Source: Apostichopus japonicus
Taxonomy: Eukaryota > Echinodermata > Holothuroidea > Aspidochirotida > Stichopodidae
Assembly (NCBI RefSeq): GCF_037975245.1
Contig: NC_092569.1
Coordinates: 2,457,501-2,521,500, forward strand
Length of the DNA: 64,000 nucleotides
Direction of reading: 5' to 3'
The notes beneath the pieces were generated by a model. It saw only the letters and a program-made list of their open reading frames with translations. It was not told where the DNA came from and did no database searches. The position numbers and the translations under genes are program-made. Positions 1 through 64,000 of the stretch are shown in pieces (position 1 is the first letter of the stretch; each line of letters begins with the position of its first letter).

Positions 1-1283
1 AATCAAAGCCATATTTTACGCAGTGAAAAGACATTATTTAGGTAGTGTTTAGCCACTTTAAGTGTATTGGTATTTTGACACAATATTTTTTCCTTCACGC
101 TTTGGTGTGAACGAAACCAATTTTACCTTACCGTTGTATATACAAGCAGTACATGAACCTATATTCACATGTATGTACGGAGTGCCGATGCGTTAATTCA
201 ATAGTGTTAATTCAATAGCACTTTCGTCGCTGGTTTGCTGGTACGCACATGTTATCTAATACGCTGGACGGTGGGAGATGTGGTAGATTATAAAACACGG
301 CTTCCACAATTTGATCACTGATGACTCCAAATGATCTTTGACCTCTACCAAAAACAATAGGAATCTTGAACTCAACGTGTCACATCTACACACCAAATTT
401 GAGATTGGTCCAAGCTTCCCTTTTTGAGATATCGTGTTTATCCTGTTTTCACAATTTCACCCCTGGTGACCCCAAATGACATTTGACCTCGAATGACAAT
501 AGACCTCTTCTACTCAATGTGGTACTCATACACACGAAATATGATTTTGGTCCAAGGTGTTCTTCTTGAGATATCGTGAAGCAAAGGGTCTCACGCACAC
601 CGCTCACAGTCATCCGCCTGCATGACTACAAAGGTTACGATTATCATCGAAACTAAAAAGGTAAAAACAAATACAAATTTGTCAAACTTGCATTGCGTCA
701 AAAGTATGCACGAATGTATTCAAATTCGTGCCTTACACTACTGGTTCCCCCCCCCCCCCCTCGAATAGATGCTTGAAAAAAGACTTTGCTTCGATGGGCA
801 TGAGAACTTATCATAGCAAACATTCCTACAAAATAATTTACATTTCAAATGTAGGATAGGCAATTTACAAAAGACAATAAAACAGTGCATGTTTGTCTGG
901 TTGCAAACTACGTCTTCGATTTAAACAGAATTCTTAAAAGCTCATAAACTACGGATTTGCTAACTAGCTACGCTTGTATACAAGGCATATCTGCATACAG
1001 TTTAACTATTCCAAAATGTAGATTGAATTTTGCGCTCATCCATATTTCCTGCTATGGTTATTATATTTTCTTCATTAATATTATTCCTTTGTACGTTACA
1101 GACCATTTGTAATTGTACAGCTTGAATTTACAAAATAAATCTAATTATCTATGTTATCGATAACACGTCCTATTGTAAAGTAGAGGATGATATGTAAACT
1201 ATAATTGGTAGAACACTAATGACAACTTCTTTAATGTTCTAATGAACAAAGAAAACAAACTTTCATTAGTTATTTATACTCAC
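1..1283 (-). other. Copy 1 intron 3 (5' part), no exon seen
   Basis: This is intron sequence similar to the stretch 24000-25150 in copy 2. It contains a dispersed repeat at about 318-590 and poly-C at 749-760. I see no exon. Exon 4 of this gene must lie left of the window. Confidence 0.6.
318..590. repeat. Dispersed repeat (CCAAATGACCTTTGAC family)
   Basis: Two degenerate internal units carry the words CCCCAAATGACATTTGACC, TACTCAATGTGGTACTCAT, GATTGGTCCAAGCTTCC and TGAGATATCGTG. Related copies lie at about 21815-22075 and 24310-24430. This fits a non-coding interspersed repeat; the family was not identified. Confidence 0.5.
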
Positions 1284-1570
1284 TGGGGGTGCATCGAAGT
1301 CTTGCATAAAGTTTTTTCTTCCGTCTTGTGTCACGGTTAAGCTCGAAACAGGACCTGTGATGTTCGACGCCGACATATACTGAGACTCACAATGAGATAT
1401 AGGATTAATTGACGCTATTAACTGTAATCGTAGTTGACTGGTTCCAAAATGAAAAGCATCGTATTTTACACCTGTCAGGAACGCCATGTCTTTACTACAT
1501 GGAAGGGCTAACTCAAACGTAAATCTTCCATTTGTTTCCCAAAGTGCGCATAAGAAACAATCCACTTGAG
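1284..1570 (-). CDS. Copy 1 exon 3, main ectodomain
   Basis: The exon runs from a GCAG acceptor to a GTGAGT donor (287 bp, phase 1 to 0). It encodes a CFLC motif, then LALPC and ISHCES, and an N-glycosylation sequon in ASNIT. The CFLCA-x-W and PC positions match exon 3 of the other copies. Confidence 0.78.
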
Positions 1571-61500: not shown

Positions 61501-64000
61501 ATGAGGTAGAATAATAATAATAACCAAAACTTTTTAACATTATTTAATCGAGAATACAAAATTGAAGTGTTACAGCGTTGTTTGATCAATATATTCTAAA
61601 GGTTTTGAACAGTTGAAAGCGTCTCTAAAACAGAAGCAAACTAAGATTTTATGTGATTGGGGAATATGTCCAACAAGGAATAATTGCGGTTATGACAGCA
61701 GTTGTATCACGTGAGGCTTTCATGTATAGAACGGACGAGGAAGGAAAAGATGGGGTTGAGAGCGAGGGAGGCAGAGCATGTCATAAACGTCCTTGAAAAT
61801 TCAACAGATTTTTTTTATAAATCCTCGCGTAGTGTAATCTCTCCACTCCTATGAGATAAATGATTATACATAAAACGAAATAACTTTTGATGTCAATTCA
61901 TTTTTGTGCATGGTCAGTTTTTCAGAACTGTTCAAGTGAATTACTTTTCAGGATATAAATGACTTGGAAAATGTCTTTTCTGATTGAAAATAAAGAAAAT
62001 ACTTACCACTGGTAGGCATGGGAACTGTTGGAACATCTGCACAAAGGAAAATATGAAGAAGAAAGACGTGTTGGTCTCGGAGGATCCTGAGATTCTAAGT
62101 TTTACTTACTTTTGTTCCATATAGGTCTGCTTACTGTCTGTAACTAGTACCAAAAATTTTGAGAGGGATTAGAGATATAAGTATGAAAAGAGGCTTGTAA
62201 AAAAAACTGTAACACATGGGCACGCGAGTACACGAGTACGCGTACACATGCCCATTTTCGCAAAGATTTCTTCTTCTTATATATAATTATAAATATATAT
62301 ACAACAGCAAGGATGAATTCCCAGTACATAGCGATGTCAGTTATGACGTCTCAGTTAACAGCGTTGGTACATATATTCAAAACACTATGATGTTACATAA
62401 TCTAGTGTTCCATACCTCCACACAATGTACAACTTACTGCAGGCAAATTACAAATCGGTGTAACATAGTACTGATACTGAGATTCGTAACATTAAATGTC
62501 ATTTAATGTTACTTTCATACTCAGTACCTGTAAAGGTGAATGTTATAGTCCTTATTTATTGCAACATAGTTCCTCCACTGTATTGTACTGAAAACGATAT
62601 GTAAACTTACCAATAACGAAACCTTCTATACAAACTATTGTATTTTCAGGATAATCTGCACTGATCCTCAAAATAATCTGTCAAAAATAAAATTATTAAT
62701 ATATATATATATATATATATATATATATATATATATATATATATATATATATATATATATATATATATATATATATATATATATATAGGAATAACGGAAA
62801 AAAGGCTGGATCTCGAGTGAGATACAATCATTAAATTAGGTAAGTGATTGGAATTAAAACAGCCAATGTTTGGTTTTTGCAGAGCTTTCGAGCAAAACTA
62901 GCTCTTCTTCAGTGAACGATGACCTAACGTGACAAGGAGTTGAAACTATTTTATAGAGAAGAGTGTCGGCATGGTTGTGAAATCAAAGCGACTTACTGAT
63001 TTCTGCTGAAGTGAGCAGAAGTTTTAGAAAACCGGATTATATTAATCCGTGTCGGATTATTTTAATCCGATTCCGTCGTAAATGCAAAAGAGTTGTTTTG
63101 GTTTTATCTGGGACGGCAAATCGTTTCTAATGTTTAAACCGAATGGTGCCGTGGTCTTTAAGTTTAGTTCCCAGAAATGTTCTTTTCCTTTCCTAGATTT
63201 ATCTGTCAATCTGTAAATCAGATTTGTATATTTTGGTTTGTTTCGTGTTGCTTTGTATTTAACGGGTTATCTGTATTTAGTATGAAGAACCGCTGGACTA
63301 TTCTTGTGAGAGACGTGTCGGCTGTCTTGTTGTGTCAGGTTGTTCTATATATATAAAAAAAAATCATTGTACACTGTTCCATTTGCAAATACATCTGCTT
63401 GCTTGTGGGATGGACCAGTGATCTTGTAATGGCGGCAACACTTCCATTTCAACGCACTGCCTCTTGCCAGCGATTGTTCATTGCATGAAAGGAAACATTC
63501 ATGATGGAGAAGAAAAAACATACAAAATTAACAACTTAAAACTCAAAACCTACTTAAAACTCACAAAAGCATTGGCCTGTCCGGTCGATGAGTTTATCAC
63601 ATAGTAAACAACACCCAAGTAGCAAACATTAATGTTTATGACTGCTGATGTTTAACAGATTTTAATTCTTCACGAATAACAAACACAAATCAATTGGTGG
63701 TGATATGTCATCATAGCTGTGTGATTATAAAGTATTTATCACAATAAGTTTGTCATCATCGATTTATCTGTATCATCTATTCCAAAATTAACGCACTACC
63801 GTATTATATGTGATTAAAATATTTAACTTTCCATAGACGCTGCCTCCAAATCAGTGTAGGCCTATATGTCTATTACTTCAATACTAATTTCTGGTTCAAT
63901 CTGTAGTGAAATGAGTAATAAGGCCAAGTTTCAAGTCTAAAACCCATTTATTTTATATACATACTGGTGCATTGCTATTCTCTGGTGATACTTGTATTCT
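58048..64000 (-). CDS. Receptor copy 5, 3' part (short tail)
   Basis: The gene enters from the right edge. Exons seen are the last 36 bp of exon 3 (64000-63965), 62677-62611, 62036-62007, 61113-61009, 60685-60593, 60231-60154, 58953-58848 and 58531-58048. They give 332 codons plus stop in one frame. The stalk has one more live exon than copy 4 (type Q at 60685-60593). The downstream type Q exon at about 59874 has lost its acceptor. The tail is of the short class with YYSI, YALP, YETV and QYINY. Signal peptide and ectodomain exons 1, 2 and most of 3 lie beyond the window. Confidence 0.78.
58848..58953 (-). CDS. Copy 5 exon 9, transmembrane helix
   Basis: 106 bp, phase 1 to 2. It encodes ENDNDGTSLW, then [20 protein letters not shown], then WYRSRR. 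Confidence 0.85.
59779..59874 (-). pseudogene. Copy 5 stalk exon with lost acceptor (type Q)
   Basis: The frame is still open (VPVSFEKHSVIGFFSTMNTE, then a segment ending EQQREED, then a GTAGAA donor). The acceptor TATAG of copy 3 is TATAA here. The nearest alternative AG would shift the frame, so the exon is probably skipped. Confidence 0.6.
60154..60231 (-). CDS. Copy 5 exon 8, stalk (type P, short)
   Basis: 78 bp, phase 1 at both ends, encoding ATISESSRPKESSPTEITQA then SDSDET. Confidence 0.72.
60593..60685 (-). CDS. Copy 5 exon 7, stalk (type Q)
   Basis: 93 bp, phase 1 at both ends, encoding VPVTSEKHSLIGLSSTMNRE then DPRTVEQRQED, with a GTAAAA donor. It is intact, unlike the copy 4 paralogue. 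Confidence 0.68.
61009..61113 (-). CDS. Copy 5 exon 6, stalk (type P)
   Basis: 105 bp, phase 1 at both ends, encoding GMSTETSRPKKSSPTEIIEV then SRTSKITQTQTLDKT. Confidence 0.72.
62007..62036 (-). CDS. Copy 5 exon 5, Pro-rich micro-exon
   Basis: 30 bp, phase 1 at both ends, encoding DVPTVPMPTS. Confidence 0.75.
62611..62677 (-). CDS. Copy 5 exon 4 ([10 protein letters not shown] exon)
   Basis: 67 bp, phase 0 to 1, encoding [20 protein letters not shown] then VI. Confidence 0.8.
62698..62788. repeat. (AT)n microsatellite
   Basis: About 90 bp of pure AT in copy 5 intron 3, followed by a retroelement-like remnant. Confidence 0.9.
62789..63360 (-). repeat. Retroelement-like remnant with CTGAAGA-hairpin-GAAA motif
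   Basis: On the minus strand CTGAAGA, AGAGCTAGTTTTGCTC and GAAAGCTCTG form a hairpin motif near 62912-62882. The rest (to TTTTGGTTTGTTTCGTGTTGC) is shared with 38480-38730 in copy 3. Penelope-like elements carry such hammerhead-like motifs, but no reverse transcriptase fragment is visible here. Confidence 0.4.
63965..64000 (-). CDS. Copy 5 exon 3, 3' end only
   Basis: Twelve codons reading RIQVSPENSNAP to a GTATGT donor in phase 0, matching the end of exon 3 in copies 3 and 4. Confidence 0.75.

Follow-up and report, generated by a model that had tools for sequence, protein, structure and literature searches.

A 64-kb stretch of the genome of the sea cucumber Apostichopus japonicus (NC_092569.1, positions 2,457,501 to 2,521,500; hereafter the window, meaning the whole 64,000 nucleotides) holds five receptor-gene units that lie head to tail on the minus strand, as seen in an alignment of the window with itself and in searches with the exon peptides of copy 4. 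We judge the chance to be slightly better than even that this is an array of the paired-receptor type, in which related ectodomains sit on cytoplasmic tails that are either short or long and similar to the immunoreceptor tyrosine-based activation motif (ITAM), and are matched by exchange between genes. Copies 1 to 5 in the window are named g1 to g5, and a further gene to its left g0. The genome searched comprises 671,581,487 bp in 35 contigs, where the window is C9:2457501-2521500. The original prediction, made from the window, described a five-gene tandem array. All five units were recovered, but two of them are cut by the window edges and the array totals six genes: extending the contig to count copies yielded g0, outside the window to the left of g1, together with the remainder of g1 and the start of g5.

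Copies 2, 3 and 4 are whole in the window, with uninterrupted products of 368, 622 and 452 residues. Of g1, the window contains the signal peptide and the ectodomain exons E1 and E2 only, the remainder lying to the left, and of g5 it contains the final 36 bp of E2 (63965-64000) and everything from E3 through the tail, its start lying to the right. The gene model runs from a signal-peptide exon, which alignment and a search for phase-1 donors placed upstream of E1, through E1 (phases 1-1), E2 (1-0), E3 (67 bp, 0-1), stalk exons (1-1) and a transmembrane (TM) exon (1-2) to the tail. All modelled window exons are open and their internal junctions are AG/GT. As had been predicted, exon order and phases are constant across copies, and E3 is 67 bp long (phase 0 to 1) in all eight copies measured, a set made up of g0 to g5 and the two genes of contig C14, which does not include the ninth match, on C15. 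Shared exon lengths had also been claimed, but these vary for E1 (96 or 102 bp), E2 (284-314 bp), TM (103-109 bp) and the tail (472-484 bp in short-tailed genes, 973 bp in g3, 2875 bp in g0). Stalk exons, expected in every copy, were found in copies 3, 4 and 5, but homology revealed none in the 12-kb intron of copy 2, where there are two weak candidates only. Because of the variable lengths and the missing stalk exon, the earlier description was right in outline and not in every detail. The features are, in window coordinates:

1284..1570, minus strand, g1 E2, main ectodomain exon
3032..3127, minus strand, g1 E1
3578..3647, minus strand, g1 signal-peptide exon
8394..8877, minus strand, g2 cytoplasmic tail exon, short
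9228..9333, minus strand, g2 transmembrane exon
21195..21261, minus strand, g2 E3, 67 bp
25153..25436, minus strand, g2 E2, its last ~45 bp strongly unlike g1
27551..27646, minus strand, g2 E1
28096..28165, minus strand, g2 signal-peptide exon
33050..33414, minus strand, degenerate tail-repeat units beyond the g3 stop, now probably 3' untranslated region
33415..34387, minus strand, g3 cytoplasmic tail exon, long, with 11 YxxPhi and 2 ITAM-like units (spacing x10)
34747..34852, minus strand, g3 transmembrane exon
35966..36070, minus strand, g3 stalk S3, phase 1-1
36648..36752, minus strand, g3 stalk S2, phase 1-1
37602..37631, minus strand, g3 stalk S1, phase 1-1
38244..38310, minus strand, g3 E3, 67 bp
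39154..40316, minus strand, g3-g4 near-identity tract, E2 and flanking intron
39344..39651, minus strand, g3 E2, 99/102 residues equal to g4
40990..41091, minus strand, g3 E1
42270..42342, minus strand, g3 signal-peptide exon
45208..45691, minus strand, g4 cytoplasmic tail exon, short
45509..47687, minus strand, g4-g5 near-identity tract, S3 and TM
46007..46115, minus strand, g4 transmembrane exon
47306..47383, minus strand, g4 stalk S3
48200..48304, minus strand, g4 stalk S2
49199..49228, minus strand, g4 stalk S1
49815..49881, minus strand, g4 E3, 67 bp
50645..50952, minus strand, g4 E2
52286..52387, minus strand, g4 E1
53569..53644, minus strand, g4 signal-peptide exon
58048..58531, minus strand, g5 cytoplasmic tail exon, short
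58848..58953, minus strand, g5 transmembrane exon
60154..60231, minus strand, g5 stalk S3
61009..61113, minus strand, g5 stalk S2
62007..62036, minus strand, g5 stalk S1
62611..62677, minus strand, g5 E3, 67 bp
63965..64000, minus strand, 3' end of g5 E2, the remainder right of the window

Relatives elsewhere in the genome are two genes on C14 (C14a, whose long tail has a frameshifted reading frame, and C14b, which has an open frame and a short tail and was modelled without its stalk exon) and partial copies on C2 and C15. As judged from sequence, a real and coding array is supported by the AG/GT-bordered exons and the constant 67-bp exon, and also by the pattern of change. Insertions and deletions in exons were multiples of three in 5/5 cases, compared with 48/217 in noncoding DNA (p=0.0007; gaps of 100 bases or more were left out, and the gene pairs overlap), and tail exons diverge less than noncoding DNA (g2-g4, 42/484 vs 144/780, p=1e-6). 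The short tails show purifying selection, with a ratio of nonsynonymous to synonymous change (dN/dS) of 0.33 for g1-g4 (p=0.0006) and of 0.46 and 0.49 for pairs with C14b (p 0.013 and 0.021).

Ectodomains and tails in this family have a mosaic history. The long-tailed g3 and the short-tailed g4 are a matched pair, with 99/102 equal residues in E2 and only 69/160 equal aligned residues in the tail; g1 and g2 have identical tails (160/160), no coding-site difference in TM or tail, and 70/94 equal residues in E2. Maximum-likelihood DNA trees conflict accordingly: E2 groups g3 with g4 (99/99) and g0 with g1 and g2 (100/100), leaving C14a, C14b and C2 without a resolved position, and the TM-intron-tail region sets the long tails of g3 and C14a (100/100) apart from seven short tails. 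The approximately unbiased (AU) test on E2 rejects g3+C14a (p 1e-40), and on the tail it rejects g3+g4 (4e-27), g3+g4+g5 (3e-6) and C14a+C14b (2e-9), for groups that were named after looking at the trees and with a tail tree built without g0. The g3-g4 similarity is concentrated in a tract with 11 differences in 1154 sites (9.1% outside it), which covers E2 and flanking intron and no other exon. Two more tracts join g1 and g2 (29 differences in 3411 sites, spanning TM and tail) and g4 and g5 (28 in 2172, 9.7% outside, spanning S3 and TM); none of the three was equalled in any of 1000 permutations each. Gene conversion and unequal exchange would each explain such tracts. The 3' module of g2 is homologous to g4 and g5 up to 9923, exactly where a long AT microsatellite lies (9925-10010), which would suit a recombination border.

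The family has two tail types, long in g0 and g3, and short in g1, g2, g4, g5 and C14b. Units of the form YxxV/I-x10-YxxV/I number eight in g0, two in g3 and zero in the short tails. The tail of g0 has 957 residues and carries a 225-bp repeat in 8.5 copies, whose span extends past the stop. Of its 32 tyrosines, 26 lie in YxxPhi motifs, compared with a shuffle mean of 5.8, and the 11 YxxPhi of the g3 tail were matched by 0/5000 shuffles; both figures overstate the evidence, as tandem repeats are not independent, and this counts against a signalling interpretation. In g0 the motifs pair eight times at spacing x10 and at no other spacing from 3 to 15. The g3 tail has two pairs at x10, one at x12 and one at x14, and also five YSE[VI], and C14a has two x10 units outside a microsatellite, in its broken frame. 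The x10 spacing is thus kept in g0, g3 and C14a although the sequence between the tyrosines diverges. Among short tails, g1, g2, g4 and g5 share the same eight tyrosine contexts, C14b lacking YETV; the tyrosines kept are those of YYSI, mostly YETV, and YxN. Of six short tails, five have YIN near the end, and the sixth (on C15, which carries a stop) has YVN. Beyond the g3 and g4 tails (32775-32880 and 45115-45200, minus strand), the sequences seem by eye to be alignable and have AATAAA-like ends, despite the unequal tail lengths.

These features suggest that the array may work like a paired-receptor system, with long tails that appear ITAM-like without being strict ITAMs. Type I single-pass receptors would bind a putative ligand through the six-cysteine ectodomain, E2 presumably being the ligand-binding exon. 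Src-type kinases could phosphorylate the tandem units of the long tails (g0, g3). Tandem-SH2 kinases would then be recruited to these units, and the activation of the cell would scale with how many there are (eight in g0, two in g3). The short tails (g1, g2, g4, g5, C14b) might be a differently coupled or a dampening, decoy partner, so that the two types would give different outputs, and recombination or gene conversion may keep the ectodomains of long and short partners matched, as in g3-g4, while the ectodomain diversifies. An immune role for the family, as originally proposed, is an inference within this scheme.

Several results weigh against this reading, first among them the limited extent of matching. 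A near-identical E2 on a long and a short tail is plain in only one of three sets (g3-g4); in the others E2 identity is 68-78% (g0-g1 73/94, g0-g2 70/94, C14a-C14b 69/102). The scan that detected the g3-g4 tract found no E2 tract for g0-g1, where there is only a noncoding tract of 170 sites (P 0.027), for g0-g2, where the tract covers signal peptide and E1 instead, or for C14a-C14b, where it covers E1. We therefore dropped the notion that E2 conversion keeps every long/short set matched. In addition, near-identity tracts also span TM and tail between short-tailed genes, and g0 could not be placed in the tail tree, its TM being unlike that of g1 (5/33). The predicted likeness to paired immune receptors is thus carried by the two tail types, the g3-g4 E2 tract and the conflicting trees, but does not extend to an E2 tract in the two other sets. 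Between C14a and C14b, E2 is less divergent than the flanking sequence (55/308 vs 208/731, the alignment of the divergent flanks being uncertain), and synonymous change in E2 (5.5/71) is far below the 208/731 of flanking noncoding DNA, a pattern that could have been left by an earlier exchange with later change in the amino acids.

Evidence for a diversifying ectodomain is similarly mixed. Across 11 gene pairs, E2 gave ratios above 1 with p<0.02 in three (3.03 for C14a-C14b, p 0.014; 3.43 for C14a-C2, p 0.005; and 2.46), every one of which involves C14a, the gene with the frameshifted tail, and no ratio above 1 holds at 0.05 after correction for 11 tests. Six of the pairs lie between 0.87 and 1.46, and in two pairs across ectodomain types nonsynonymous change is below synonymous (p 0.03 and 2e-5), i.e. 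purifying. At the end of E2, g1 and g2 differ at 16/50 sites (scan P 0.0055), which is not exon-specific, because one noncoding window reaches 15/50; over the whole of E2, divergence is not significantly above the flanks (p 0.09). TM exons of g2 to g5 show 0-1 synonymous vs 7-11.5 nonsynonymous changes in 5/6 pairs, which are small numbers.

The tails raise further objections. Comparisons of the g3 long tail with those of g2, g4 and g5 give dN/dS near 1, those of the g0 units with one another 0.87, and both intact long tails stop inside longer, now degenerate repeat arrays. The strict ITAM consensus is D/ExxYxxL/I-x6-8-YxxL/I, to which the eight g0 and two g3 pairs do not conform, with V in the first half where ITAM has L/I and a spacing of 10 instead of 6-8. 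The tails of g2, g4 and g5 contain no immunoreceptor tyrosine-based inhibition motif (ITIM), and that of g1 is identical to the one in g2, so the inhibitory half of a pair is unsupported. Tyrosine-rich tails had been predicted throughout, which proved correct for copy 3, above shuffles, but the other three of the four window tails have two YxxPhi each, as in shuffles (P 0.31-0.38), and we dropped a general enrichment in tyrosine motifs. Phosphotyrosine signalling, likewise predicted, is supported by the motif statistics of the long tails but not by the short tails, which are at chance level and without ITIM.

In repeated sites of this kind, as in the substrate domains of the p130Cas type, motifs can also serve single-SH2 adaptors. 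The tails might be such docking scaffolds, recruiting many adaptors to repeated YxxV sites without any pairwise reading. In each g0 unit the pair is accompanied by a third YxxV that stands alone (PVYGKV), the +3 residue is mostly V and not L/I, and g3 has two NPxY (P=0.0008) besides the looser pairs at x12 and x14, all of which would fit. A scaffold needs no fixed spacing, however, and x10 is constant in g0 (eight), g3 (two) and C14a (two) despite the diverged spacer. This is not decisive, because homologous repeats share their spacing by descent, and we regard the scaffold as unlikely, yet as deserving consideration.

Somewhat less probable still are receptors for allorecognition or for gamete or cell adhesion, whose ligand would be self or mate and not microbial. 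Sea cucumbers are solitary animals, so that a fusion role is not obvious for them. Precedents exist in Botryllus FcoR and the Hydractinia alr candidates, which have ITIM/ITAM-type tails according to the accessible part of the source (PMC12065747). As described there, these too are clustered and diversified invertebrate receptors with YxxI/L/V-type tail motifs, but FcoR combine Ig (immunoglobulin) and sushi domains with ITIM or hemITAM, where the present family has no Pfam domain and YxxV/I pairs at a fixed spacing.

YxxPhi doubles as the sorting motif of clathrin adaptors, and tails governing endocytosis instead of kinase signalling would account for it, but V, a poor sorting residue at Phi, occupies this position in 24/26 g0 sites, and sorting requires neither paired spacing nor as many as 26 copies, making this improbable. 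We give just as little credence to a decaying tandem family of drifting duplicates with little function, homogenised by chance conversion, as the broken g5 E2 and C14 long tail, the partial C2 and C15 copies, the stops in several tails at C9:13.3 Mb and the many pairs with dN/dS near 1 might suggest, since frames are open through five C9 genes (g0 to g4) and C14b, short tails are under purifying selection and exon indels are in frame.

The paired-receptor reading would involve an ectodomain without a match in the families searched. Six cysteines (C8, C38, C41, C58, C95, C152, first-row numbering) are conserved across seven joined ectodomains, as are W25 and W44, with g4 26-28% identical to the g0-g2 type. 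Neither the single exons nor the joined ectodomains gave a significant match to Pfam, NCBIfam or PDB sequences, and nothing but repeat artefacts exceeded the cut-off of a known family. Within its limited sensitivity, the Pfam scan of the seven joined ectodomains found neither Ig nor sushi domains, and nothing up to E 10 except one sub-cut-off match to the plant self-incompatibility S1 family (PF05938), in one of the seven. Among five fragments, this family matched g2 only (16.4 bits vs a cut-off of 24, E 0.014); we treat the match as chance because g1, a near relative of g2, lacks it. A sub-cut-off match to TMEM154 (E 0.0024) ran over the TM and was rejected, as was DUF5514/QPE on the g0 tail, where the whole protein is above the cut-off and no single stretch passes, which we take for a repeat artefact. 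AlphaFold2 models of E2 alone were poor (mean predicted local distance difference test scores of 37 and 42.5). No relatives of the family were confirmed in viral and other genome contig collections.

The expansion of the family, as initially supposed, is modest. Type A E2 was found only in g0, g1 and g2 (10 candidates scored), and the second type in g3, g4, g5, the two C14 genes, one C2 gene and two C15 fragments (12 candidates scored), all these counts being lower bounds. The g5 E2 has one stop and one frameshift outside the window, which leaves its ectodomain broken. Short-tail sequence is also present at seven places in C9:13.31-13.47 Mb, three of them stop-free, and TM exons adjoin both places that were read. 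These are candidates for headless copies or for a third ectodomain type; we rejected the latter, as the 20 kb read of this region yielded no E1, E2 or E3.

Some observations concern the surroundings of the genes. In the g3 stalk region (35526-35621 and 36438-36533, minus strand), inspection by eye showed an open, AG/GT-bordered stretch of phase 1-1 that occurs twice, of the type VPVTS..KHS....EQQREADG, which is broken in g4 and is possibly an extra stalk exon being lost. Left of g0, C9:2397501-2417500 has plus-strand open reading frames that look unlike the receptors and may belong to an ordinary gene at the border of the array. The window (1-64000) holds poly-G runs, GACG repeats and AT microsatellites, and tRNA and Rfam scans of it gave no match.

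Zimmermann and Kammerer, in the part of their report available to us, called putative paired receptors in Xenopus from clustering, activating and inhibitory tails that share similar ectodomains, and conversion at the exon that binds the ligand (PMC5112662). In our array, we found similar ectodomains on different tails (g3-g4, weaker elsewhere), a single cluster and a tract at the E2 exon, and did not find activating (ITAM-type) together with inhibitory (ITIM) tails. As far as that source goes, the resemblance to the vertebrate systems of Xenopus and mammalian CEACAM lies in gene clustering and in the near-identity of a ligand-binding-type exon on different tails (g3-g4), with the tract at that exon. 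The differences are an ectodomain not recognisably Ig, short tails without ITIM, near-identity in one of three long/short sets and long tails with tandem ITAM-like repeats. The Biomphalaria GRC and PTC2 genes, compared by description only, are also clustered and encode diverse single-pass membrane proteins, PTC2 without known domains; four of seven GRC genes have fibronectin III, and the accessible text describes no tail pairing or ITAM-like repeats (PMC4361660, PMC7494358). Among the literature matches listed, with most subscription journals outside coverage, there were no ITAM-like or paired receptors from sea cucumbers, which is weak evidence of novelty.

Receptors that combine matched ectodomains with different tails have been described mostly in vertebrates, and ITIM/ITAM-type tails have been reported in recognition loci of tunicates and cnidarians. 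More speculatively, and on balance doubtfully, an echinoderm may have evolved a paired-receptor system of its own, with a new ectodomain fold, a signal set by the count of units (0, 2 or 8) and matching by gene conversion. Such a system would act as a 'gain control' of innate recognition encoded in the germline, and would be independent of the Ig and lectin receptors of vertebrates. If true, the echinoderm case would suggest that paired-receptor logic evolves repeatedly, and the countable series of units would offer a natural dose series for how many ITAM-like units a receptor needs.

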